Assembly: GCA_022072445.1 (NCBI GenBank)
Contig: JAJVHV010000016.1
Coordinates: forward strand, 124,001 to 188,000
Length of the DNA: 64,000 bases
Direction: 5' to 3'
From: Phycisphaerae bacterium
Lineage (GTDB): Bacteria; Planctomycetota; Phycisphaerae; UBA1845; Fen-1342
The notes under the pieces were generated by a model that saw only the letters and a list, made by a program, of their open reading frames with translations, was not told the origin of the DNA and did no database searches. A program made the position numbers and the translations under genes. Within the stretch, counting starts at the first letter, position 1, and every line of letters starts with the position of its first letter. Positions 6,469 to 41,168 of the stretch are shown piece after piece.

Positions 6469-6870
6469 TTAGAGTCTCGCCCCGTCCGGCAGACGATTCC
6501 CCACGAAATCGAGAATTGCTCGTACGGTCGTGAGTGCGACTTCGACCTCGTCCACCGTTGGATCCGCCGGCCCTGGATACCGGAAACGGACGGCGTAGGC
6601 TGAGAGCGGCGCCACCGTCGCCTTGAGCGGCTCAAACTCCGCATCGTAGCGAGCGCAGTCGTCAATCAGCCGCCCCAAGTCGTGCACCTTCTCGAATTCG
6701 CACTCGCGCCAAACGAGGTACGCCTTCAGCGCCTTCTCAATGGCCTGCTGGCAGTGAAACGCCGCTATGTCGGTTACCGGGTTGGCACACTCCAGCGCAG
6801 CCTCGGCGCCAATCCGGTCGTGATCAGCCTTTACGAGCCAGCGGCGCGCTTCGAGCAAGTCAGGCGGCAT
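6469..6870 (-). CDS. HEPN-domain protein, partner of a minimal nucleotidyltransferase
   Basis: 133 residues, almost entirely one HEPN four-helix domain: N-terminal LLEARRWLVKADHDRIGAE, the conserved FHCQQAIEKALKAYL helix, HDLGRLIDDC, and the C-terminal RYPG-type turn followed by VDEVEVALTTVRAILDFV. HEPN proteins paired with minimal nucleotidyltransferases form toxin-antitoxin-like modules in which the HEPN part is usually the RNase or toxin and is adenylylated by the partner. The catalytic Rx4-6H signature is not clearly present (the nearest is R-x7-H before HDL), so this may be the related non-RNase HEPN subtype. Its start overlaps the stop of the nucleotidyltransferase gene by 11 bp. Confidence 0.85.
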   Translation of the reverse strand: MPPDLLEARRWLVKADHDRIGAEAALECANPVTDIAAFHCQQAIEKALKAYLVWRECEFEKVHDLGRLIDDCARYDAEFEPLKATVAPLSAYAVRFRYPGPADPTVDEVEVALTTVRAILDFVGNRLPDGARL

Positions 6871-7195
6871 AAAGCAGCCTGCCTTTCCGCTTCACGGTGC
6901 GCTCGAACGACACGGACAGCGCGGCGCGCTGCTCGAATTCCTCGCGCGTGTAGACCATCACGTCCTTGGCGACGCCCAGCTCCGAGAGCGCCAGATATGC
7001 CCGGGAATCGCGCTGGAAAGGGCTCAGCGGGCTATCCTCGACGACAACCAGCACGTCGACGTCGCTATGCCGGGTGGGCGTGCCATAGGCGTACGATCCG
7101 AAGAGGTATATCGCGACGGGCGCGAATGCCTCGCGCAAACGCCGTACGATCTCGGCCGCGACGGCATCGAGTTGCTCGGCGTTCAAGGGGGGCAT
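6860..7195 (-). CDS. Minimal nucleotidyltransferase (MNT) of a HEPN/MNT module
   Basis: About 111 residues from the ATG beginning MPPLNAEQLD (an in-frame ATG at 7228 would add 11 residues; neither has a strong ribosome site). The pol-beta-type signature is intact: LFGSYAYGTPTRHSDVDVLVV contains GS, G and the SDxD metal ligands, and a third acidic residue lies in KDVMVYT. These proteins transfer nucleotides, typically AMP, onto a tyrosine of their HEPN partner. First gene of the three-gene cassette that reads into the HEPN gene and the unrecognised gene. Family assignment is firm; the antitoxin role is inferred from the pairing. Confidence 0.87.
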   Translation of the reverse strand: MPPLNAEQLDAVAAEIVRRLREAFAPVAIYLFGSYAYGTPTRHSDVDVLVVVEDSPLSPFQRDSRAYLALSELGVAKDVMVYTREEFEQRAALSVSFERTVKRKGRLLYAA

Positions 7196-11877: not shown

Positions 11878-13503
<1,626 letters not shown>

Positions 13504-13654: not shown

Positions 13655-13972
13655 CTAGTCCTGAATGGCGAGGATGTCCGCTTCCCGCAGAATGACGTAC
13701 GTCTCACCTTCCAGCTCGACTTCCGTCCCGCTGTACTTGCCGTAGAAAACGCAGTCGCCGACCTTCACCGACATCTGGCCACGCTCGCCGCTCTTCTCCA
13801 GCAGCTTGCCCGGGCCGGCGGCAATCACCTTGCCCTGCTGCGGCTTCTCGCGGGCCGTGTCCGGCAGCACGATTCCGCCGCGCGTCTTCTCTTCGGCCTC
13901 GAAACGCTCGACAACGACGCGATCATCCAGCGGACGAATCTTGAGCTTCTTTGCGGTGGCAACTGCGGGCAT
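13655..13972 (-). CDS. groES: Co-chaperonin GroES
   Basis: 105 residues with the full GroES signature: [20 protein letters not shown] at the start, GGIVLPDTA in the mobile loop, GKVIAAGPG, and [35 protein letters not shown] at the end. GroES caps GroEL rings during folding. A strong AAGGAG lies 10 nt before the ATG. Upstream are three imperfect 26-bp tandem repeats (see 13989-14067); no CIRCE (HrcA) element was found nearby. Confidence 0.95.
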
Positions 13973-14367: not shown

Positions 14368-16020
14368 CTACATGTCGTCCATGCCGCCCATGTCGTCATG
14401 GTCGTGGCCGCCCGGGGCACCCTTGCCCTTCGCGTCCTTCGGCTTCTGCGCGATCACGCACGCCGTCGAAAGCAGCACGCGGGCCACGCTGCTCGCGTTC
14501 TCCAGCGCCGAACGCACCACCTTGGTCGGGTCGATCACGCCCATCTTCAGCATGTCCCCGTACTCGCCCGTGTCCGCGTTCCAGCCGATCGAGCCGCCCT
14601 TCTCCGTCACGCGCTTCAGCACTACCGCCGGCTCGGCACCCGCGTTGATCGCGATCTGCCGCAGCGGCGCCGTGCACGCTCGGCGGATCACCTCCGCCCC
14701 CACCTTCTCGGCCTCACCCTTGATTTGGAAGTTGTCGAGCGCCGCGGCGGCCCGCAGCAGCGCCACGCCGCCGCCCGGGACGATGCCTTCCTGAATCGCC
14801 GCCCGCGTGGCGTGCAGCGCGTCCTCGACGCGCGCCTTCTTCTCCTTCAGCTCCGCCTCGGTCGCGGCGCCCACGTTGATCTGCGCCACGCCGCCCGCCA
14901 GCTTCGCCAGCCGCTCCTGCAGCTTCTCGCGGTCATAGTCGCTGGTGGTGGCGTCGATCTCCTTGCGGATCATGTCGATGCGGCCCTTGATCGCCGCGCT
15001 GCTGCCGGCCCCCTCGATGATGGTGGTGTTGTCCGCGTCGATGCGGATCTTCTTGGCCTGACCCAGGTCCGCAATCGGAACGTTGTCCAGCTCGATGCCC
15101 AGGTCCTTGAAGATCGCCTTGCCGCCCGTCAGCGTCGCGATGTCTTCCAGCATCGCCTTGCGCCGGTCGCCATAGCCCGGCGCCTTCACCGCCGCCACGC
15201 TCAGAATGCCGCGCAGCTTGTTGACCACCAGCGTCGCCAGCGCCTCGCCCTCGACGTCCTCGGCGATGATCAGCAGCGGCCGCTTGGCCTTGGCGACCTT
15301 CTCCAGCAGCGGCACGAGCTTGGTGACGCTGCTGATCTTCTCCTCGTAGACCAGCACGAACGCCTTCTCCAGCGTGCACTCCATGTTGTCCGGATCGGTC
15401 ACGAAGTGCGGGCTGAGATAGCCGCGGTCGAACTGCATACCCTCCACCACGTCCACCGTGGTCTCCAGGCTCTTACCCTCCTCGACCGTGATCACGCCGT
15501 CCTTGCCCACCCGCGCGAAACAGTCCGCCATGATCTGCCCGATCGAGCGGTCGTTGTTCGCCGAAATGCTCGCAATGTTGACAATGTCGTCCGATTTCTT
15601 GTCCGAAACCGGCCGCGAATTGTCGTGCAGCGCCGCGACCACACGCCCCACCGCCGCGGCAACCCCGCGATTGATCCCGTTGGCGTCAAAGCCCGCGACA
15701 ACCTGCCGCATCCCTTCCTTGAAAATCGCCTCCGCCAGGATCGTCGCCGTCGTCGTCCCGTCCCCCGCCACGTCCGACGTCTTGCTCGCCGCTTCCTTCA
15801 CCAACTGCGCCGCACAATTCTCGTTCTTGTCGGTCAGCTCCACCTCTTCGGCGACCGTCACTCCGTCCTTCGTCACGTTCGGCGCGCCCCAGCCCTTGTC
15901 GAGGACGGCGTTGCGGCCGCGCGGCCCGAACGTGCTCTTCACCGCCGAAGCGAGCTTCTCGACACCCGCCACGAATGCCTTCCGGGCGTCGTCATCGTAC
16001 GTGATCAACTTGGCCGCCAT
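14368..16020 (-). CDS. groEL2: Chaperonin GroEL, copy 2 (with GGM-type tail)
   Basis: 550 residues from the ATG beginning [14 protein letters not shown], which has AAGGAG 8 nt upstream; the frame is open 26 codons further but without GroEL-like sequence. All GroEL hallmarks are present ([50 protein letters not shown]). The C-terminus ends [14 protein letters not shown], the hydrophobic Gly/Met tail of housekeeping GroELs that lines the ring cavity. It has no adjacent groES of its own but lies just upstream of the groES-groEL1 pair. The two GroELs differ clearly in sequence, so they are old paralogues rather than a recent duplication. Confidence 0.95.
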
Positions 16021-31433: not shown

Positions 31434-33056
31434 ATGAGCGACCGACACAACCACAACCAGCCGCCCGAACCCCTCGACTGGGCCCGCGAGTTCCTCCCCG
31501 CCTACTTCTCGGACCCGCCCGCCCAGTTCCACCAGGACCTCTTCAACCTCCTGGCCGACCCCGCCCGCAGGTCCATCGCCCTGGTCGCACCCCGCGGCCA
31601 CGCCAAATCCACCTGCGCCGCCTTCGCCTTCCCACTCTGGTGCATCTGCCACCAGCTCCGAAAAAACATCGTCATCATCACCCACGAATCCTCCCTCGCC
31701 ACCCAGTTCCTCCGCGACGTCCGAACTGAACTCGAAGCTAACGACGACATCATCCGCGCCTACGGCGACCTCTCGTCCGAACCGCGCCCGCCCGACCGCG
31801 AAAACCGCGCCCCAGACCGCGAAAACCGCGCCCAGCCGAGCCCCGACCGCGAAGAACGCGCCCAGCCGAGCCCCGACCGTAAGGGAGGGGTTCGACCGGT
31901 GCATGCCTCCGAACTCGGCGCATCGCGCGCCCGAATCGCCACCCTCGAGCGCGCGAATGCCAACCCCCCGCGCCGCTCGCGCGCCAAGTGGACCGAATCC
32001 ATCCTCACCACCAGCACCGGCATCACGCTGCAGGCCCGCGGCGCCGGCGCCAGCTTTCGCGGCACGCGCGTCGGACCCATGCGTCCCGACCTCATCATCT
32101 GCGACGACATCGAGAAAGACGAGCACGTCGAGACCCTCGACGGCCGCATCCGCCTCGAAAACTGGCTCCGACGCGTCGTCATCCCCGCCCTGGCACCCCA
32201 CGGCCGCCTCATCATCCTGGGCTCGATCATCCACCACGATTCGCTGCTGGCCAACCTGCGCGACCGCGCCCGCTTCCCGCGCTGGGAATACCGCGTCTAC
32301 CGCGCCATCGAGGCCCGCCGACAGCCCGACGGCGCGCACCGCCTCGAACCCCTCTGGCCCGCGCGCTGGCCGCTCGAAAAACTCAACGCCGAACGCGAAC
32401 GCATCGGCTCGGTCGCTTTCGAGCAGGAGTACATGGCCAACCCGATCGACACCTCGCTGCGCGTCTTCCGGCCCGAGTGGCTGCGGCGCTGCAAGCCCGA
32501 CGACCTGGCCGGAAAAAAACTCCTCAAGCTCATCGCCGTCGACCCCGCCACCGGCGCCAGCAACGGCGACTATTTCGCGCTGTGGGTCGGAGGCGTCGAG
32601 CAGGACTCCGGCCGCATCTACACGCTCGAGCTCACGCTGGAGCGGATCGGCATCGTCGAGCAGGTCCGCCGCATCGTCGACGCGTTCGAGCGTCATCGCC
32701 CGCTGCGGATCGGCATCGAGACGGTGGCCTACCAGGTCGCGCTGCGCGACATCCTGGCGGATCACAGCCGCACGCAGCGGCTCTACATGCCGATCGTCAG
32801 CATCAACAGCACGGCGAACAAGCGCGCCCGCATCGAGGGCAGTGCGCCGTTTTTCGAGAATGGGACGTTTCTGCTGCCCGAGCGGCTCGACCCGGAGGCC
32901 GAGACGCAGTTTCTGCATTTTCCCAAGGCCGGCCACGACGACGCGCCCGACGTGTGCGCGATGGCGATCGAGCTGGCCCGCGGCCTGCGCGCCGCCGGCC
33001 GGATCGAAGGCGCGACGGCGGGCTCGAACCCCTTTGCGCGTCGCGGCGCCTGGTGA
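31434..33056 (+). CDS. Phage terminase, large subunit
   Basis: 540 residues from ATG (MSDRHNHNQPPEPLDW). The ATPase part has Walker A VAPRGHAKST (51-60) and Walker B DLIICDDIE (219-227); the RNase-H-like nuclease part has LIAVDPATG (Asp370), GIETVAYQV (Glu429) and the late HDDAPDVCAMA (Asp triad). It would pump DNA into the capsid and cut it. Residues about 115-168, between the Walker motifs, are a repeat-derived insert (PDRENRA, RAQPSPDREE, RAQPSPDRKG) that keeps the frame and is absent from the fold. It is the first gene of the head cassette, and no small terminase subunit is visible. Confidence 0.92.
   Translation: MSDRHNHNQPPEPLDWAREFLPAYFSDPPAQFHQDLFNLLADPARRSIALVAPRGHAKSTCAAFAFPLWCICHQLRKNIVIITHESSLATQFLRDVRTELEANDDIIRAYGDLSSEPRPPDRENRAPDRENRAQPSPDREERAQPSPDRKGGVRPVHASELGASRARIATLERANANPPRRSRAKWTESILTTSTGITLQARGAGASFRGTRVGPMRPDLIICDDIEKDEHVETLDGRIRLENWLRRVVIPALAPHGRLIILGSIIHHDSLLANLRDRARFPRWEYRVYRAIEARRQPDGAHRLEPLWPARWPLEKLNAERERIGSVAFEQEYMANPIDTSLRVFRPEWLRRCKPDDLAGKKLLKLIAVDPATGASNGDYFALWVGGVEQDSGRIYTLELTLERIGIVEQVRRIVDAFERHRPLRIGIETVAYQVALRDILADHSRTQRLYMPIVSINSTANKRARIEGSAPFFENGTFLLPERLDPEAETQFLHFPKAGHDDAPDVCAMAIELARGLRAAGRIEGATAGSNPFARRGAW
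31779..31930. repeat. Repeat family B insert inside the terminase gene
   Basis: Tandem 30-bp units (CGCGCCCAGCCGAGCCCCGA then CCGCGAAGAA) at about 31829-31888 run into the family B core (CGACCGTAAGGGAGGGGTTC) and then GAACTCGGCGCATCGCG at 31911, the same word order as in the intergenic copy at 27468. The 30-bp unit length preserves the reading frame, giving a Pro/Arg/Glu-rich loop. Confidence 0.8.
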
Positions 33057-33099
33057 GACCTGAGTGGATATGAGCCCCGTGATTTGGAGCGAATGACCG

Positions 33100-35376
33100 A
33101 TGAACGCGTCGCTGTGGTCTAGAATGTCTAGCCGAACATCCGCCCTGGCCGCCCGGCTCGCGCCGCGCCGCCGACGCCGCCGACCCGCGCCCCAGCCGCC
33201 CGGGGCCGAGACGCGCCCGGCACCGCCCGCCGACGCCAGCCGCACCCTGCGACCCTGGCGCGACGATTTCGCCCGCAGCTACCCCTCGGTCGGCCTCACG
33301 CCGGCGCGCGCCCTGGCCCTGCTCCAGCAGGCCGACGGCGGCAGCCCGCACAGCCAGTTCGAGCTCTTCGCCGAGATGATCCGCAAGTGGCCGCGCCTGG
33401 CCGCGGTCGAAAACACCCGCCGCCTGGCCCTGACCGGGCTCAATTGGGAGCTCGCCCCGGGCGGACCAGCCTCCGCCGCGGCGCCTGGGGGACCGGCCTC
33501 CGCCGCAGCGTCTGGGCGGCCGGCCTCCGGCCGGTCTCTTGCCGCGGAGAGCCCCGCGCCCGACGAAATCCTCGCCTTCTGCCGCGACACGCTCGACCGC
33601 ATCGAGCGCTTCCGCGATGTGCTCGATCATCTCGCCTCCGCCATCGGCTTCGGCATCGCTGTCGCCGAACTCGTCTGGCAGGACGGCCGCCTGGTCGACC
33701 TCGTCCCGGCGCCGTTCAGCCGCCTGATCGCCGATCCACACGAGCCGTGGCGCCTGCGGCTGCGGACCGAGCAGGATCCGCATCGCGGCGTGGCGCTGGA
33801 TGAGCAGCCGGCGAAGTGGATCGTGCACGTGCCGCGCAGCCAGGCCGGCCGCCACTTCGACGCCGGCCTGCTGCGCGCCAGCGTGCCGCTCTACGTCGCG
33901 CAGAGCCTGAGTTTCAAGGACTGGCTGATCTTCTCGCAGATCGCCGGCATGCCGCTGCGCGTCGCGCAGTTCGAGCCCGGCACACCCGAGGCCGACAAGG
34001 CCGAGCTGCTGCGCATGCTCCAGTCGCTGGGCACCGACGCCGTCGCCGTCATCAGCAAGAGCGTCGACCTGAAGCTGCTCGAAGCCCGGCAGAGCGCCGA
34101 CGAGCGGCCGTATCAGCCGCTGCAGGAATACTGCAACAACGAGATCACGATTCTGTGGCTCGGCCAGCATCTGACGACCGACATCCGCGAAAGTGGCTCG
34201 CGCGCCGCCGCCGAAATTCATGACCGCGTGCGCGAAGACCTGCTGATCGACGACATCGCCGACGAAGCTGCTGCGGTCCGCCGCGACATCCTGACGCCGA
34301 TCGTTCGCGCCCGATTTGGTCCCGACGCGCCCGTGCCGCACTTCCGCCGCTCGCTGGTCGAATCGGTCGATACGCGGCAACTGGCGGAGATGCTGGCGGT
34401 CGCGGTGGGCGACCTGGGGCTTTCGGTTCCGCAGCGCTGGGCGCATCGCGCCCTGGGCATCCCCGAGCCCGTCGCCAGCGAGCCGGTGATCGCCCGCCGC
34501 GACCGTGACGATCCGAACCGCGACCGTGTGGATCCGAGCCGCGCGACCGATCCAAGCCGCGACCGTGTGGATCCGAGCCGCGACGATCCGAGCCGCGACC
34601 GTGTGGATCCGAACCGCGACCGTCAGGGAGCGGTTTCCATGCCCAGCGCGCAGACTATCGAATGTCGCGAGTCTCCCCCCGGCCGCGCAGTGTCGTTCCA
34701 GCCGCGACGGACCGTCGCGTCACGCGGCGGGTCGTTCCAGCCGCCGAGTGAGGCGTGTTCGGCGAGCGTTTCGCGCTTGGCCAGGAAACCGCTCCCTGAC
34801 GGTCGCGGTTCGGATCCACACGGTCGCGGTTCGGATCCACACGGTCGCGGCTCGGATGGACGCGACTCGGATGCACGCGGCTCGGATGCGCCGCCCGCCG
34901 CCGCGCTCAGCGTCCGGCCTGCCGGCCGCACCGATCTGACGCCGCTGCAGTTCTTTTTCGACACGGCCCTGCGGCGCGACTACTTCATCCGCCGCGGCCA
35001 GCTCGAGGAGATTCTCACCGACCGCTACCACCGCGTTTACGTCGCCGAAATCGACCAGGTGCTGGTCGGCGTGGCGATCACGACCTGCGAATCGCGCCTG
35101 GTTAACGCGCTGGTGCACCCGGCGTACCGCGGACTGGGCATCGGCCGCGCGCTGGTCGAACAATCGGGCGCCGCGGAAGTCCGCGCCAAGACCGACATGT
35201 CCAGCGGCGACCCGCGCCCGTTCTACGAATCGATCGGATTCAAGCCCACCGGCCGCACCAACGGCAAGGGCAACATCGAAGTCATGCAGCGCGCCGCCAC
35301 GAGCGGCCGGCGCGCCGCGCGAGCCGTCACCACCTGCCGCCCGCGTGCGGCGACTTCACGGAGAAGAGAGCAATGA
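33100..35376 (+). CDS. Mu-like portal protein (DUF935) joined in frame to a GNAT acetyltransferase
   Basis: 758 residues. Residues 45-470 are a DUF935/Mu gp29-type portal (YPSVGLTPARALALLQQADG, IRKWPRLAAVENTRRLALTG, YCNNEITILWLGQHLTTDI, RRSLVESVDTRQLAEMLA); the ring would be the DNA gate of the head. Residues about 475-600 are repeat-encoded (RDRVDPSRD, PLPDGRGSDPHGRGSD). Residues about 605-735 form a GNAT domain: FFFDTALRRDYFIRRGQ, VNALVHPAYRGLGIGRALVE, DPRPFYESIGFKPTGR. An internal ATG at 34639 with AGGGAG 8 nt upstream could also make the GNAT part alone (245 residues). It overlaps the protease gene (ATGA). Confidence 0.85.
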   Translation: MNASLWSRMSSRTSALAARLAPRRRRRRPAPQPPGAETRPAPPADASRTLRPWRDDFARSYPSVGLTPARALALLQQADGGSPHSQFELFAEMIRKWPRLAAVENTRRLALTGLNWELAPGGPASAAAPGGPASAAASGRPASGRSLAAESPAPDEILAFCRDTLDRIERFRDVLDHLASAIGFGIAVAELVWQDGRLVDLVPAPFSRLIADPHEPWRLRLRTEQDPHRGVALDEQPAKWIVHVPRSQAGRHFDAGLLRASVPLYVAQSLSFKDWLIFSQIAGMPLRVAQFEPGTPEADKAELLRMLQSLGTDAVAVISKSVDLKLLEARQSADERPYQPLQEYCNNEITILWLGQHLTTDIRESGSRAAAEIHDRVREDLLIDDIADEAAAVRRDILTPIVRARFGPDAPVPHFRRSLVESVDTRQLAEMLAVAVGDLGLSVPQRWAHRALGIPEPVASEPVIARRDRDDPNRDRVDPSRATDPSRDRVDPSRDDPSRDRVDPNRDRQGAVSMPSAQTIECRESPPGRAVSFQPRRTVASRGGSFQPPSEACSASVSRLARKPLPDGRGSDPHGRGSDPHGRGSDGRDSDARGSDAPPAAALSVRPAGRTDLTPLQFFFDTALRRDYFIRRGQLEEILTDRYHRVYVAEIDQVLVGVAITTCESRLVNALVHPAYRGLGIGRALVEQSGAAEVRAKTDMSSGDPRPFYESIGFKPTGRTNGKGNIEVMQRAATSGRRAARAVTTCRPRAATSRRREQ
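34593..34829. repeat. Foldback element: 46-bp perfect inverted repeat inside the portal-GNAT frame
   Basis: Arm 34593-34638 and arm 34784-34829 are exact reverse complements (inner end GGAAACCGCTCCCTGACGGT). The spacer is 145 bp. Outside the arms, GGATCC(G/A)A(G/A)CCGCGACCGTGT-type units repeat several more times on both sides (34500-34592 and 34830-34880). The core CCGCGACCGTCAGGGAGCGG is a variant of family B. It is all translated as Arg/Asp/Ser/Gly-rich linker. Confidence 0.88.
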
Positions 35377-36512
35377 GAGCGAAATCCACGACAAACGACA
35401 CTCGCCCACGCCGCGCAACGCAGCGCGGCGGCGGCCGCGGACCCGCGGCGGCCGGGCGACACACAGACCATGCGATGCGCGGCGGCGGCGGCGACGCCGG
35501 CCTTTCAGGCGATTCGCCGTCCGCCCCGCGCGCCCTGCTGGGCACGCGCCTGGGCGGGTGCGAAGTCGCCGACGCCAGCGGCGAGCCGCGCGGCGAATGG
35601 CTGCTGATTCCGTATGGCCAGGTGCGCGTCGAGCGGCCGCTGAGCGGCGCCGACTTCGTGTTCACGCCGCAGCACGCGCGCTCCATCGTGCAGTGGTTCG
35701 AGCAGCTCGGGCGCAAGCTGGCGATCGACTACGAGCACCAGTCGTTCGATCAGCTCAACACGCGGCCCGACGGATTGCGCCCCGCCGCCGGCTGGATCAG
35801 CCGGCTCGAGGTCCGCGACGACGGGCTGTGGGCCAGCGACGTGGCCTGGACGGCCAAGGCGCGCGAGCTGCTCCGCAGCGGCGAATACCGCTACTTCTCG
35901 CCGGTCATCTACTGGACCGACGAGCAGCAGTCGGACGTTGCCGGCCTCGGGCCGGTCGCGCTGACGAACGATCCGGCCATGTGCGGGGTTGCGGCGCTGG
36001 CCGCCGGACGCGCTGCGCCGGGCCATGCGGACGCGATCGAGCCGGTCGACGAGCAGCCGGACGCGGACCACTTCGCGGCCGGCCTGGCCGCCGCCGAGCA
36101 GCTTCAGAACGATCCGGCGGCGGGCGAGCAGCGCGGCGACGCGCGGACGATCGCGCTGCTGGAGCGCGAGAACGAGCTGTTGCGGCGCAAGCTGCGCTAT
36201 CAGGCGGCCGACGCGTTCATCGAGCGCGGCATGCGCGAGGGGCGGATCGTCGATGCGACCAGCATGGACTGGCGCGACGATTACCTGCGCGATCCCGACG
36301 CCGCCGAAGCCCGCCTGGCGCGGTCTCCGGTGATTCGGCCGCCGGGTCGCGTGATTGCGCTGGACGAGCGCGGGCGGGCGCTGCCGTCGCCGCAGGTGGC
36401 GCGGCGCGCCGGAGGCGCCGGCCCGCTGTCGATCGACCCGCAGGACTACGAGGCGTTCGAGCGCGCCTATGCCGCCGGGCGGGTGCGGCTGTTTTCGGGC
36501 GGCGCGGCGTAG
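35373..36512 (+). CDS. Mu-like phage protease/scaffold (GpI-type)
   Basis: 379 residues. After a 50-residue basic, Gly-rich leader comes EWLLIPYGQVRVERPLSGADF, LAIDYEHQSFDQLNTRPDG, AAGWISRLEVRDDGLWASDVAWTAKARELLRSGEYRYFSPV, the usual core of Mu-like prophage I proteins, which mature the capsid by proteolysis. The second half has a helical scaffold-like region (LLERENELLRRKLRYQAADAF). Its ATG overlaps the portal stop codon. The gene order portal-protease-decoration-major head matches Mu-like head modules. Confidence 0.85.
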   Translation: MRAKSTTNDTRPRRATQRGGGRGPAAAGRHTDHAMRGGGGDAGLSGDSPSAPRALLGTRLGGCEVADASGEPRGEWLLIPYGQVRVERPLSGADFVFTPQHARSIVQWFEQLGRKLAIDYEHQSFDQLNTRPDGLRPAAGWISRLEVRDDGLWASDVAWTAKARELLRSGEYRYFSPVIYWTDEQQSDVAGLGPVALTNDPAMCGVAALAAGRAAPGHADAIEPVDEQPDADHFAAGLAAAEQLQNDPAAGEQRGDARTIALLERENELLRRKLRYQAADAFIERGMREGRIVDATSMDWRDDYLRDPDAAEARLARSPVIRPPGRVIALDERGRALPSPQVARRAGGAGPLSIDPQDYEAFERAYAAGRVRLFSGGAA

Positions 36513-36523
36513 TGGCGGCGCGG

Positions 36524-36603
36524 GTGCGAGAAGGGACTCTCGCACGCACAAAGGGACGCAGGGACGCAGGGACGAAGGGACACAGGGACACGGATTTCAA
36601 CAG
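36524..36603. repeat. Hairpin repeat (family D) followed by GGGAC simple repeats
   Basis: GTGCGAGA and TCTCGCAC form a perfect 8-bp stem around AGGGAC at 36524-36545; two more copies are at 38403 and 38445. From 36546 to 36603 the sequence is repeated A(A/C)AGGGACGCAGGGACGC-type units. It fills the gap between the protease and decoration genes. Confidence 0.75.
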
Positions 36604-36612
36604 GAGACAGAC

Positions 36613-37350
36613 ATGGCACTCACCGCCAATCGTGAAGTTCCGTTTTACACCACGCCCGAGCTGATCGAGCTGGGCGTCGACGACAACATCCGCGTCTACA
36701 AGGGCGCGCTGATCGGACGCAACCGCAGCACCGGCTTCGTCCGCGGGCTGGTCGCCGGCGACGAGTTTGTCGGCGTGGCCTATTCCGAGGCCGACAACAC
36801 CGTCAGCGGGCACAGCGCCGGCGGCCTGAACGTCGTGCTGCATCAGAACATCGACATCGTGCACGCGCTGCCGGGCGTGGCGCAGGGCGACATCGGCAAG
36901 GACGTGTACGCCAGCGACGACAGCACGCTGACGCTCAATCCGAACGGCAACAGCCGGGTGGGGCGCGTCGTGACGGTCGAGGCGACGGACACGGCCCGCG
37001 TGCGCTGCCAGCCGGTGCAGTCGATCAGCGGCACGCTGGAGAACCAGGAGATCATCACGCTGGCCGACGCCAGCGTCGCACTGACGCTCAATCACGTGAA
37101 CCGCATTCTGCTGATCGGCAACAGCGTCGGTCGCACGCTGACGCTGCCGGCGGTGGCGACGGTGCGTGCGGGCGGGTGGATCACCGTCGTGAAGACGTCC
37201 GCCGCCGCCGCCGCCGTCACGCTCGACCCGAACGCGGCCGAGACGATCGACGGAGCGGCGACGCTGGCGACGCTCGATGCGCAGTACGACGTGGCCACGA
37301 TCGTGTGCACGGGCAGCGAGTGGATCGTGCTGAACCGCGACATCGCGTAG
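36613..37350 (+). CDS. Phage capsid decoration-type protein with a C-terminal fibre-like beta domain
   Basis: 245 residues from the ATG beginning MALTANREVPFYTTPEL, with CAGGAGACAG just upstream. Residues 1-130 resemble DUF2190-type capsid cement proteins (VYKGALIGRNRSTGFVRGL, FVGVAYSEADNTVSGHSAGG). Residues 135-245 are a separate beta-rich unit, LLIGNSVGRTLTLPAVATVR, GGWITVVKTS, VTLDPNAAETIDGAATLATL, TIVCTGSEWIVLNRD, a pattern I know from phage fibre and tailspike repeats. Fusion of the two is unusual. It lies between protease and major head genes, which supports a capsid-surface role. Confidence 0.72.
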   Translation: MALTANREVPFYTTPELIELGVDDNIRVYKGALIGRNRSTGFVRGLVAGDEFVGVAYSEADNTVSGHSAGGLNVVLHQNIDIVHALPGVAQGDIGKDVYASDDSTLTLNPNGNSRVGRVVTVEATDTARVRCQPVQSISGTLENQEIITLADASVALTLNHVNRILLIGNSVGRTLTLPAVATVRAGGWITVVKTSAAAAAVTLDPNAAETIDGAATLATLDAQYDVATIVCTGSEWIVLNRDIA

Positions 37351-37357
37351 CAGCAGT

Positions 37358-37396
37358 AACGAGTGGCGAATAGCGAATAACGAATAACGAGTTCGC
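37358..37396. repeat. AT-rich interspersed repeat (family F)
   Basis: AACGAGTGGCGAATAGCGAA then TAACGAATAACGAG sits in the gap between the decoration and major head genes. It matches the AATAACGAATTG / GCGAATAGCGA words at 28674, 41218 and 57084. Confidence 0.65.
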
Positions 37397-37450
37397 GGCC
37401 GGCGAGTTGCGTGCGGCGTCGCGAGGCAAAACAACTGAGGAGAGATACCC

Positions 37451-38377
37451 ATGGCAGTCGTTGTGGATACCGGACTTTCGTCGCGAGCCATCATCGGCCG
37501 CTTCTACCGCAAGCTCGAAGAGTTCGCGCAGAGCGCCTGGTGGACGCGCCTGGCGATGCACTTCGCCAGCAATCAGCCCGCCGAGACGTATCGCTGGCTC
37601 GGCATGGTGCCGCAGGTGCGCGAGTGGGTCGGCGGTCGGCAGGTGCGCCCGCTGCGGGCCAGCGGCGTGACGATCGTGAACAAGGTGTGGGAATCGACCG
37701 TGCGGATCGACGCCGACGAACAGCGGCGCGACAAGACCGGCCAGATCATGGTGCGGATCAACGAGATGGCGCGGCGGGTGGCGACGCATCCGAACAAGCT
37801 GCTGACGACGCTGGTGCTGAACGGGCCGAGCAGCGCGGGCTATGACGGGCAGTTCTACTTCGACACCGATCACAGCGAAGGCGACTCGGGCGCGCAGAGC
37901 AACGCCATCAGCTATGACGCGACGACGCCCACCGCGCCGACCGACGAAGAGATGTTCAACGCGGTGGTGAAGGCCGTGGCGCAGATCATGAGCTTCAAGG
38001 ACGACCAGGGCGAGCCGATGAACGAAGCGGCCCGCGAGTTTCTGGTGATGGTGCCGATGACGTTTCTGGCGCCGACGCTGGTGGCGCTGGCCAGCCGCAA
38101 CATCGACGCGACCGAGAACCCGCTGGCTGACGGCCCGTTCCGCGTCGATTTTGTGGCCAACCCGCGGCTGACGTGGACGGACAAGTTCGCCGTCTTCCGC
38201 ACCGACGGCGACAGCCGGCCGTTCATCTTCCAGGAAGAGCTGCCCGTCGAGGTGCACGCCCTGGCCGAGGGCAGCGAGCTGGAGGCGAATGAGAACCAGC
38301 ACCAGTACGGCGTGAAGGCCATTCACGAGGCGGGCTACGGCTTTTGGCAGGACGCCTGCCTGGTGACGCTGACGTAA
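37451..38377 (+). CDS. Mu-like major head subunit (GpT-type)
   Basis: 308 residues, typical length for Mu-like GpT (HK97-fold) capsid proteins. Visible family features: YRKLEEFAQSAWWTRLAMHF, YRWLGMVPQVREWVGGR, NKVWESTVRIDADEQRRDKTG, YDGQFYFDTDHSEGDSG, and VDFVANPRLTWTDKFAVFR near the end. It would form the capsid shell. ACTGAGGAGAGATACCC gives a strong ribosome site before the ATG, fitting high expression. It is intact, with no repeat insert. Confidence 0.9.
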   Translation: MAVVVDTGLSSRAIIGRFYRKLEEFAQSAWWTRLAMHFASNQPAETYRWLGMVPQVREWVGGRQVRPLRASGVTIVNKVWESTVRIDADEQRRDKTGQIMVRINEMARRVATHPNKLLTTLVLNGPSSAGYDGQFYFDTDHSEGDSGAQSNAISYDATTPTAPTDEEMFNAVVKAVAQIMSFKDDQGEPMNEAAREFLVMVPMTFLAPTLVALASRNIDATENPLADGPFRVDFVANPRLTWTDKFAVFRTDGDSRPFIFQEELPVEVHALAEGSELEANENQHQYGVKAIHEAGYGFWQDACLVTLT

Positions 38378-38388
38378 CAGCCGGGGCG

Positions 38389-38466
38389 GCTGTTCCACAT
38401 GTTGCGAGAAGGGATTCTCGCACGACGGGCTGTTCCAGATGTTGGTGCGAGAAGGGACTCTCGCAC
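38389..38466. repeat. Two family D hairpins in tandem
   Basis: TGCGAGA/TCTCGCA around AGGGAT at 38403-38422 and GTGCGAGA/TCTCGCAC around AGGGAC at 38445-38466. Each is preceded by GGCTGTTCCA(C/G)ATGTTG, making a roughly 41-bp duplicated unit. The rest of the 260-bp gap between the major head and DUF1320 genes holds no gene. Confidence 0.8.
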
Positions 38467-38637
38467 CGGCGGACAAGCGGTGACGTGAACCTGAAGGACG
38501 TGCGTGCCCTCCACACGCTCGGCGGCGCCGGGACGGCCGGACGCGGCCCGTGTTCTGCGGCTCCCGACGGCCGACGATGGCCGCCCGGCCCGCCGGCGTG
38601 AGGTGCGCAGCGCTCCACCGATGACGGGATGTGAACC

Positions 38638-39090
38638 ATGGCGTATGTGACGACGACACAACTCAGCGCGCGGCTCGGCTCGGCGATGTACGCCCGGCTG
38701 ACCGACCGCGTGAACGGCGCGACCGCCGACGCGGCCGTCGCGCAGCAGATTATCGACGAGGCCGCCGCCGAGGCCGACAGCTACCTGGCGGTGCGCTACG
38801 CGACGCCGGTGGATCTGTCCGCGCGGCCGGAGCTGGCGGACATGTTCGAGGCGCGTGTGCTGGACCTGGCGGAGTATGGCGCCTGGAAAGCGTCGCCGTT
38901 CGTCAGCGATCTGCCGCAGCGCGTGCAGCGGATCTACGCGGCCGCGATTTCGTGGTTCACCGCGGTCGCGGCCGGGCAGGTTGATCTGCCGGCGGCGGCG
39001 GCGCCGTCGTCGCGAACGGCGACGGACGACTCGCCGCGCTATGCGGCCGACGAGCGGCGCTTCACGCACGACGAGCTGGACGGACTGTGA
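38638..39090 (+). CDS. DUF1320 phage protein (Mu gp36-like)
   Basis: 150 residues: MAYVTTTQLSARLGSAMYAR, a helical body (QIIDEAAAEADSYLAVRYATP, LADMFEARVLDLAEYGAW) and a disordered C-terminus. This matches the DUF1320 family found directly after the major head gene in Mu-like phages, thought to act at head completion or the head-tail joint. In Mu it is followed by tail genes; here no tail gene follows. Confidence 0.82.
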   Translation: MAYVTTTQLSARLGSAMYARLTDRVNGATADAAVAQQIIDEAAAEADSYLAVRYATPVDLSARPELADMFEARVLDLAEYGAWKASPFVSDLPQRVQRIYAAAISWFTAVAAGQVDLPAAAAPSSRTATDDSPRYAADERRFTHDELDGL

Positions 39091-39149
39091 CGATCGGCGG
39101 GTCTCGCCGGCAGAGCGGCTGACGCCGCGGAACTGGACGAAGGTGAAAC

Positions 39150-39473
39150 ATGGCATTCATGCAGCAGTCCTACACGGGCGCGCAGAGCAACACGATCATT
39201 GTGCCGGCGTCGGCCGGGCGGATCATCCTGGCGACGCGGATCCTGTTCAGTTGCGAGGGGGTGGTGAATTTCCGGCTGGTGTCCGACCCGGACGGGAGTC
39301 CGGTCGACCTGACGCCGCCGATGTTTCTGGCGTCGAACCGGTTCATTGACCTGGCGCTGGGGCACACGTTTGGGCTGGGTTCTGGAGCGGGCAAGGCGCT
39401 GGGGATTACGACGAATCCGTCGAGCGTGCCGACGAATCACAGCATCGCGGTCTGGTATGAGCTGGTGACCTGA
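39150..39473 (+). CDS. Small beta-rich protein of the head cassette
   Basis: 107 residues, MAFMQQSYTGAQSNTIIVPA. It reads as a beta-sandwich: short hydrophobic strands (GRIILATRILFSCEGVVNFRL, FLASNRFIDLALG) separated by Gly/Pro turns, ending NHSIAVWYELVT. No signal peptide. From size, position and fold it is probably a minor capsid or spike-type structural protein, but I do not recognise the family. Its stop overlaps the next ATG (TGATG). Confidence 0.7.
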   Translation: MAFMQQSYTGAQSNTIIVPASAGRIILATRILFSCEGVVNFRLVSDPDGSPVDLTPPMFLASNRFIDLALGHTFGLGSGAGKALGITTNPSSVPTNHSIAVWYELVT

Positions 39474-39751
39474 TGACCGAGGAGATTCTGCGGCAGCTTC
39501 CGTCGCTGGGCGTGTCGGGGCTGCTGTTCGTGATGTGGTGGGGCGAGCGGGCCGAGCGGCATCGCGGGGCGGCGGCGGCGCAGGACGCGCAGCAGTCGGC
39601 CAGCCGGCTGGCACATCTGAACAGCGAGCTGCTGGACGTGATCCGCTCGAACACGGAGGTGCTGACGGCGCTGCGCGAGGAGCTGCGGGCGCACCGCGCG
39701 ACGGAGGTGGATTGGCTGGCGCGGATTTCGCGGCAGATGGAGACTGACTGA
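39473..39751 (+). CDS. Small membrane protein with coiled coil, phage cassette
   Basis: 92 residues. One N-terminal hydrophobic helix (SLGVSGLLFVMWWG) is followed by a long Ala/Glu/Arg-rich coiled coil (AQDAQQSASRLAHLNSELLD, VIRSNTEVLTALREELRAH). The layout resembles phage holin/spanin accessory proteins or tape-like small proteins. It is translationally coupled to the preceding gene. Function not assigned. Confidence 0.65.
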   Translation: MTEEILRQLPSLGVSGLLFVMWWGERAERHRGAAAAQDAQQSASRLAHLNSELLDVIRSNTEVLTALREELRAHRATEVDWLARISRQMETD

Positions 39752-39787
39752 AGCTGCGAACAGGGAACAGGAAACAGGGAACTACAG

Positions 39788-40090
39788 ATGAACTGGGCGG
39801 CGATTGTGAAGCGGATTGATCCGGCGACGGCGCGGGCGTTTGTGAGCGCGGCGCGGGCGGTGATCGACGCGATGTTGATTGAAGGCGAGCGCGTCCGGCA
39901 GGCACAGGCTCCTGCGCGACGAGATTACGGATCGGCGGGACTGCCTGCCGACGCGCCCGCCGGCGGATGGATTTCGGACAGCGAAGTGCGCTCGGCGGCG
40001 CAGAAGATGAGCGAGGCGCTGGCGGCGGAGAAGTGGGTCGAGGGCGTGATGTTCGCGATCAAGGCGCTGAGCGCGCTGGGGGCGGTGTGA
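39788..40090 (+). CDS. Small helical protein of the phage cassette
   Basis: 100 residues, MNWAAIVKRIDPATARAFVS. Two helical parts (ATARAFVSAARAVIDAMLIEG; VRSAAQKMSEALAAEKWVEG then VMFAIKALSALGAV) flank a flexible centre. No motif recognised. The 36-bp gap before it is an ACAGGGAACAGGAAACAGGG simple repeat, whose purine-rich end may serve as its ribosome site. Confidence 0.6.
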   Translation: MNWAAIVKRIDPATARAFVSAARAVIDAMLIEGERVRQAQAPARRDYGSAGLPADAPAGGWISDSEVRSAAQKMSEALAAEKWVEGVMFAIKALSALGAV

Positions 40091-40096
40091 GAACGA

Positions 40097-40274
40097 CAAT
40101 GCAGAATGAAGAATGCAGAATGCAGAATCAGGGGTTCCGGGGTCAGGGGTCAGGGTTCGGGGTTCGGGGTTCAGGGTTCGGGGGTCAGGGGTCAGGGGTC
40201 GGAAGGCGGCGGGCGGGAGGCAAAGTGCTGAACGGCGCATTGGCTGTGCACTCTGCATTCTTCATTCTGCATTG
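40097..40274. repeat. Foldback element with 23-bp perfect terminal inverted repeats (family E)
   Basis: Left arm 40097-40119 (CAATGCAGAATGAAGAATGC then AGA) and right arm 40252-40274 are exact reverse complements. The 132-bp centre is G-rich, with many GGGGTCA/GGGTTC units (40132-40202) that could form quadruplexes. The right arm lies inside the next gene and encodes its hydrophobic signal core. Related copies: 14332 and 41151. Confidence 0.85.
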
Positions 40275-40773
40275 CTGTGGTTGCACCGCGGAGAGTGTGC
40301 GGCTGGCGATCGAGCAGCAACGACGGACGGACGAGGTGCAGCAGGCGGTCGTGATGCGGCAGCATGACGCGCTGTGCGTGCTGATGTATCGCGACGTCGT
40401 GCGGCGAATCGAGGCCGCGGGCGGGCCGCTGAACGCCGAGCAGCGGGCGCAGATCAGCGAGGCGTGGAACGATCGCGATCTGGCGGAGTTCTGGCTGGTG
40501 CAACACGAGCGGGCCAAGGCGCTGCGGATGGTAGGCGTGGACGTGCGGCTGTATGGCGAGCAGTCGGTGCTCGATCTGCTGTTGAAATCGCTGGACGCGA
40601 AAGTGGCGCGCGTCGAGCAGGGTGTGGCGGGGTATGTGGGGCGGCGCGTCGGTGAAACCGCGGCAGGCGAGGAGAGTGAAGCCGCGGGAAACAAAAGCAG
40701 TGAAACCGCGGGAAACAGAAGAAGAGAAACTGCCGGAAACAGAAAAAGTGAAACCGCGGATGAACGCAGATGA
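40225..40773 (+). CDS. Exported protein of the phage cassette with repeat-derived signal peptide and tail
   Basis: 182 residues from a GTG with GGGAGG 4 nt upstream. The N-terminus LAVHSAFFILHCCGCTAES looks like a short lipoprotein-type signal but its core is encoded by the right arm of a dispersed repeat. The middle is helical (VRLAIEQQRRTDEVQQAVVM, ISEAWNDRDLAEFWLVQHER, LLLKSLDAKVARVEQGVAG). The C-terminus is a tandem 8-9-residue repeat (SEAAGNKS, SETAGNRRR, ETAGNRKS, ETADERR). Family unknown. A start inside the preceding repeat is possible. Confidence 0.6.
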   Translation: MLNGALAVHSAFFILHCCGCTAESVRLAIEQQRRTDEVQQAVVMRQHDALCVLMYRDVVRRIEAAGGPLNAEQRAQISEAWNDRDLAEFWLVQHERAKALRMVGVDVRLYGEQSVLDLLLKSLDAKVARVEQGVAGYVGRRVGETAAGEESEAAGNKSSETAGNRRRETAGNRKSETADERR

Positions 40774-40943
40774 ACGCGGATGGGTGAGCGAGCGCGGAGT
40801 CGCGCGGGACTTGGCGGGGCGTAGGCGTTTGCTGCCCATTGACGGCAGCGTCGCCGCGAGTCCGTGGAGTGAGACGTGTTGTGTGCGGGACGTGGAAACT
40901 GAAGTCGGACAAGAGTCGAGACATTCTGCGAAAGGGTGAAGAG

Positions 40944-41168
40944 ATGAATCGCGACGTGATGATGACGGGATGGCGGCGGTGGCTGTGGCCGCTGCGCAGC
41001 CGCAAGGTGCAGGTGGCGCTGGCGACGGTGGTGGCGGCGTGGGCGGCGGAAGCGGGGCTGGGGGTCAGCGAAGAGACGGTGCTCAGCGTGCTGGGTGTGG
41101 GCGTGGCGCTAATTCTGGGGATCGCGCATGAGGACGCGGGAAGGACGAAAGCGCAGAATGCAGAATGA
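40944..41168 (+). CDS. Holin-like small membrane protein
   Basis: 74 residues from the ATG beginning MNRDVMMTGWRRWLW (AAAGGG upstream); the frame is open earlier but without family-like sequence. A basic start, then two hydrophobic segments (VQVALATVVAAWAAEAGLGV and EETVLSVLGVGVALILGIA), and a polar end: the layout of small phage holins. The last codons and stop (KAQNAE) come from a copy of the GCAGAATG repeat. No endolysin gene accompanies it. It is the last gene of the cassette. Confidence 0.65.
   Translation: MNRDVMMTGWRRWLWPLRSRKVQVALATVVAAWAAEAGLGVSEETVLSVLGVGVALILGIAHEDAGRTKAQNAE

Follow-up and report, generated by a model that had tools for sequence, protein, structure and literature searches.

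The DNA analysed here, hereafter the window, is a 64,000-nucleotide stretch (G000:C1:124001-188000) of a 5.25-Mb planctomycete genome in 50 contigs. Positions 31434-41168 hold a head and packaging cassette of 11 open reading frames (ORFs) with 12 functions, all on the same strand and in the order TerL, portal-GNAT, protease, decoration, gpT head, gp36, S1, HOL1, S3, S4 and HOL2 (Table 1). Six of these ORFs, those for the terminase, portal, protease, decoration protein, gpT head protein and gp36, match Mu-like head families. An earlier note on this DNA had described a ten-gene set with the head genes in Mu-like order, followed after DUF1320 by small membrane or helical proteins and a holin-like gene. 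Pfam and PHROG matches recovered every head gene that it named, in that order; the count of ten had to be corrected, an entire GNAT acetyltransferase was recognised within the portal ORF, and the small genes are present as described, save that one of them encodes a lipoprotein in relatives. The ten flanking genes tested (phosphohexomutase, isochorismatase, M20 peptidase, one of no assigned family, tRNA_bind, CsgG, SH3_3, MGMT, CBS and HhH-GPD) are all of host type, as the note had held. Neither tail, integrase, phage regulator nor endolysin genes were found among them, which bears out its description of a head-only cassette, and no transposition genes were seen. No tRNA gene lies within the 64-kb window, and the GC content of the cassette (66-71%) is similar to that of its flanks, also as described. 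Elsewhere in the window, two groEL-like genes lie near each other (11878-13494 and 14368-16020) with a groES gene (13655-13972), and a gene pair at 6469-7195 resembles, judged by sequence alone, a HEPN and nucleotidyltransferase (MNT) toxin-antitoxin.

Table 1. Features of the head and packaging cassette, with coordinates in the window.
Feature	Position	Strand	Evidence or remark
Large terminase (ATPase and RNaseH-like nuclease)	31434..33056	+	phrog_38 2e-92, PF17289 5e-8
Mu-type portal domain of the portal-GNAT ORF (ORF 33124-35376)	33124..34560	+	PF06074 2e-74
GNAT acetyltransferase domain of the portal-GNAT ORF	34861..35376	+	PF13508 3.5e-11
Mu I-like head maturation protease	35475..36512	+	PF10123 3.5e-37, phrog_328
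Head decoration / virion structural protein	36613..37350	+	phrog_1731 5.5e-15; orthologues in family cassettes
gpT-like major head protein	37451..38377	+	PF10124 8.6e-44
gp36 / DUF1320 head completion (adaptor) protein	38638..39090	+	PF07030 3.6e-19, phrog_195
S1, 107-aa jelly-roll protein, candidate capsid spike or cement	39150..39473	+	AlphaFold model
HOL1, one N-terminal TM helix and coiled coil, holin/spanin-like	39473..39751	+	topology, family motif
S3, conserved helical protein of ~100 aa	39788..40090	+	orthologues in family cassettes
S4, small lipoprotein	40219..40773	+	lipobox ~40270; start uncertain, called ORF 40297-40773
HOL2, two-TM holin-like protein	40881..41168	+	conserved core in family

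In the window, the GNAT is joined to the portal by a repeat-rich linker. In relatives of the same family the two are separate genes, with the GNAT gene between those for the portal and the protease and, in some relatives, with the portal stop and the GNAT start touching. The enzyme may modify a head protein. In-frame repeat insertions occur within conserved genes at positions 31780-31974, 34497-34889, 40128-40200 and 40652-40759 of the window, affecting terminase residues ~117-185, the portal-GNAT linker and the tail of S4; the terminase repeat has ~21 further copies in the same genome and is absent from the terminases of relatives.

The AlphaFold model of S1 is a confident jelly-roll (pLDDT 95.9). 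Comparison with the PDB returned generic jelly-roll matches with Z under 10, with phage cement, turret and spike folds among the weak matches, which is only suggestive of a cement or turret protein. Because S1 combines this confident fold with the fastest evolution in the cassette, it may be a head spike; the head spikes of RcGTA likewise have a jelly-roll base protein (PMC7296036). In HOL1, the motif LPSLGxxGLLFVMWW is conserved within the family, and one orthologue weakly matches an Rz-like spanin (phrog_89, 0.016). HOL2 has a highly conserved WRRWLWPLRSRKVQVA...GVALILGIAHEDAG core in the family, and S4 orthologues carry a signal peptide and a G-C lipobox; a search for a viral relative of this family-specific S4 gene found none. 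To judge only from their topology, HOL1, HOL2 and S4 may act in lysis.

Conservation of the cassette was followed across the order. Searches with the head protein found the major head gene in 84 of 101 relatives, usually as a single copy, as in the genome of the window, and in 58 of the 63 genomes that are at least 90% complete. Within the window's family, sampled by 27 species of 24 genera, the head gene was found in 22/27 genomes and the portal, as a single copy, in 22/27; some of these misses fall at contig ends and many of the genomes are draft MAGs. Outside the order, head-length PF10124 matches occur in only ~6 of the 291 other planctomycete genomes of a phylum-wide sample, once the short C-terminal matches in 600-800-aa ORFs that inflated the count are set aside; the trait therefore belongs to the window's order. 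Reading frames are intact across the family cassettes, and Nei-Gojobori dN/dS values indicate purifying selection: 0.04 for the major head protein (two same-genus pairs), with most other genes of the cassette at 0.08-0.33, including 0.08-0.14 for HOL2, 0.21-0.25 for S3 and 0.22-0.28 for the GNAT, S1 being the least constrained (0.26-0.49). Distances of the head genes correlate with those of rpoB (Mantel 0.52, p 0.026), a modest congruence with the host tree, and those of the terminase less so (0.29, p 0.06). Gene trees, mostly unresolved within the window's family, show the families clustering. These data indicate that the cassette is near-universal in the order and, to the extent of this modest congruence, has probably been inherited mostly vertically.

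The terminase behaves differently from the head genes in its position. In the window it adjoins the portal, ending 68 bp upstream, and to this extent the earlier note rightly counted it in the cassette. This adjacency is however found only in this genome among the family members in which both loci were read: in all the others the terminase lies elsewhere, usually among different host genes, and in the single-contig genome G023 it is ~76 kb from the head cluster. An orthologue with 57-69% identity over most of its length is present as a single copy in 24/27 family genomes; the 99%-complete family genome G015 keeps a lone terminase (L187, G015:C5:4000-23900) and has no detectable portal or head gene. 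In the sampled family terminases, the Walker A motif (G55HAKST60), the Walker B residues DD224-225 and the nuclease residues D370, E429 and D502/D503/D506 are invariant, which supports the note's argument from intact catalytic residues against decay. Pairwise distances of the head protein and of the terminase correlate (Mantel 0.73, p 0.0002), and this correlation persists after controlling for rpoB (0.68, p 0.0002). That an unlinked head gene and terminase evolve together speaks for a single machine under cell-level selection, and their covariation is unusually clear evidence that the cell, and not a phage, is the unit selected. Possibly the terminase-portal adjacency of the window is ancestral; in the rpoB tree the genome of the window falls outside the rest, midpoint rooting making this weak evidence.

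In the search for a tail and for a small terminase subunit (TerS), L114 (G046:C2) and L130 (G040:C9), both true Mu-like prophages from within the order, were taken as reference. They appear complete, each having a TerS, a tail tube, a tape measure and a hub, and their genomes also carry the domesticated cassette. Their proteins were compared with 57 loci: 14 family head, 20 family terminase and 23 other-family cassette loci. Most or all head cassettes contain matches to the portal, protease, decoration, head and gp36 proteins of these prophages, and the genes are homologous and collinear with those of Mu-like or B3-like phages and prophages, namely L114, L130 and Pseudomonas phages of the JBD5 type. 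In contrast to the prophages, the cassettes have no TerS, tail tube, tape measure, hub or fibres: over the 57 loci, the TerS, tube, tape measure, hub and other tail proteins of L114 and L130 gave a single match, to a putative head-tail protein in L132. The absence of TerS applies to the cassette and terminase loci. At the genome level, a concatenated tail query (tube, hub and two more proteins) recovered both prophage genomes (E near 0 and 1e-77). Its one further match, in G054, is weak, and the 27 family genomes gave none. The PF04984 sheath family was found in 1/27 family genomes and the PF10145 tape measure family above cut-off in 1/27, a probable prophage in G018. Searches for the PF11985 (TerS) and PF08873 (Mu gp37) families returned no matches, in the control genomes either, and hence do not count as evidence. 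Tail proteins diverge fast, and a very divergent tail at another locus is possible. A prophage with a tail lying beyond the cassette was considered and rejected, the window flanks and the family-wide tail searches being negative.

Other families of the order (f2, f4, f5, f7 and f8) have a second kind of cassette, which comprises a terminase of another TerL family (phrog_5909), portal, protease, decoration, head and gp36, and usually adds a Mu gp37-like protein. In some of these cassettes there follow a 707-aa protein (L117:11985-14108; also L120, L123, L145 and L152) and fibre-like proteins. The 707-aa protein has no Pfam or PHROG match, its AlphaFold model is too poor for use (pLDDT 49.6), and in the window's family it has only distant matches, away from the cassette, in 3/27 genomes. 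These other-family cassettes also have no tube or tape measure. The f7 cassette lies beside the same host gene, encoding a 6-pyruvoyl-tetrahydropterin synthase-like protein, in six genomes of five genera, and thus has a fixed chromosomal address. The portal tree unites the two kinds of cassette with the planctomycete prophages in a single clade (SH-aLRT 99), separate from other phages (row L052, labelled viral, is actually a MAG of the window's family), whereas the head-protein tree places this family as the sister group of a set of environmental viruses. As the two trees differ, there was either a single domestication followed by replacement of the head and terminase in the family, or two domestications. 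Environmental viruses (L058-L061) and an Anammoxibacter contig (L045) carry the head protein of the window at 50-55% identity and have no match to the family portal, protease or gp36 profiles.

The note's view of the locus as a domesticated capsid is upheld: the cassette occurs in single copy in nearly all of the order, its frames are intact and evolve under purifying selection, its catalytic residues are conserved and it is inherited vertically. Neither of the findings that it had said would speak against this view, a tail close by or sporadic frameshifted remnants, was made. We consider it somewhat better than even (about 55%) that the cassette is a host-domesticated, vertically inherited phage-head and DNA-packaging module, akin to a gene transfer agent (GTA) and without a recognisable tail. 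Kogay et al. 2022 (PMC9662315) list six GTA features, among them the packaging of mostly random host DNA, an own genome too large to be packaged in full, and delivery of the DNA to other cells. As in RcGTA and other GTAs, the cassette consists of phage-derived, host-fixed head and packaging genes (matches to Portal_Mu, Mu-like_Pro, Mu-like_gpT, Phage_Mu_Gp36 and terminase families mark them as caudoviricete-derived), is endogenised over more than one locus, head cluster and terminase being apart in the family relatives examined, and has mostly co-diversified with its hosts, with the modest head-rpoB congruence given above. In contrast to GTAs, caudovirion-like tailed particles find no counterpart by homology near the cassette or, isolated matches aside, across the 27 family genomes: the cassette has no recognisable tail, baseplate, TerS or endolysin. 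It also differs in its Mu-type portal, protease and head protein and in the added GNAT and lipoprotein genes. The bias of RcGTA towards cheap, low-carbon amino acids is not seen either, the family's major head protein having 4.956 carbons per residue vs 4.910 in viral relatives with GC > 0.6. The cassette may work like a GTA; the label itself is unproven, the system being known here from its genes.

How such a module would operate can be proposed only tentatively. Possibly, this order of planctomycetes exports chromosomal DNA in tailless capsids, by means of an unlinked terminase, release by holin-like proteins and a lipoprotein, and delivery through head decoration and uptake by the host. Under a host-controlled condition, the cell would assemble procapsids from the protease, decoration, major head and portal proteins; the terminase, beside which no TerS was found, would fill them with host DNA without a specific pac site, and gp36 would plug the portal. 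The capsids would then be released as HOL1, HOL2 and the S4 lipoprotein permeabilise the envelope. The S1 jelly-roll would decorate the head and may bind recipient surfaces, and no classical tail might be needed to bring the DNA into other cells: as a guess, for instance, the capsid might open outside the cell and its DNA be taken up by competence.

The nearest rival is a conventional tailed GTA whose tail genes are located elsewhere and have diverged beyond recognition. The terminase being unlinked, parts of the system are already dispersed, the genes of RcGTA occupy five loci (PMC9662315), and gp36-type adaptors normally lead to a tail. However, the 27 family genomes gave no match to the prophage tube, hub and other tail genes and essentially lack the sheath and tape-measure families, and the other cassettes of the order share the lack of tube and tape measure, so that we regard this reading as unlikely, if still worth keeping in view. 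A decaying Mu-like prophage would explain the gene order, which matches Mu-like heads, but hardly the absence of frameshifts, the dN/dS of 0.04-0.3, the order-wide presence and the invariant catalytic residues; moreover, the TerS and tail proteins of L114 and L130 have no match at the family head and terminase loci, and the flanking genes tested include no transposition or integration gene. We give this explanation almost no weight.

Of the three alternatives that the earlier note had offered, the GTA-like head is favoured over the satellite and the nanocompartment. A capsid-forming PICI-type satellite, borrowing tails from a helper phage, has a similar head-only content, and like the cassette cf-PICIs and cf-PISP carry head and packaging genes without tail genes (PMC13230959). 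Yet cf-PICIs are mobile satellites that hold terminases, regulators and recombinases together and have PF05065 capsids (PMC13230959), whereas the head protein here is of the Mu gpT family, no integrase or regulator lies among the ordinary host genes beside the cassette, the terminase of relatives is on another part of the chromosome, and usually one copy occurs in nearly all genomes of the order. Because it is vertical, unlinked from its terminase and devoid of mobility genes, the cassette is very improbable as a satellite. A nanocompartment within the cell, with a shell that is empty or holds cargo but no DNA, would fit the conserved HK97-type shell gene and the lack of a tail, and the GNAT could be its cargo. 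To our knowledge, encapsulins are not built around a terminase. They too are HK97-type shells kept by the cell, but they have a dedicated cargo-loading mechanism (PMC8346489), whereas here the shell is of the gpT family and a portal, protease, adaptor and catalytically intact terminase are all retained and co-vary with it. Since terminase and portal are kept, we find this reading improbable. Much the same likelihood attaches to a capsid-based anti-phage or abortive device that would respond to infection by packaging or cutting phage DNA, or by lysing the cell with the holin-like proteins. The combination of a nuclease-ATPase with membrane proteins would suit it, and satellites are known to interfere with phage packaging; but no PADLOC family was matched, and defence systems are usually patchy and mobile while the cassette is near-universal and vertical.

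Searches of the open-access literature yielded no earlier report of a GTA or a domesticated capsid in planctomycetes, and turned up no tailless GTA in any organism. A capsid and packaging motor maintained order-wide with no tail would mean that these cells keep phage heads for the export or protection of DNA without a delivery device, and the reading as a domesticated, GTA-like packaging module predicts host DNA that is protected from DNase within capsids.
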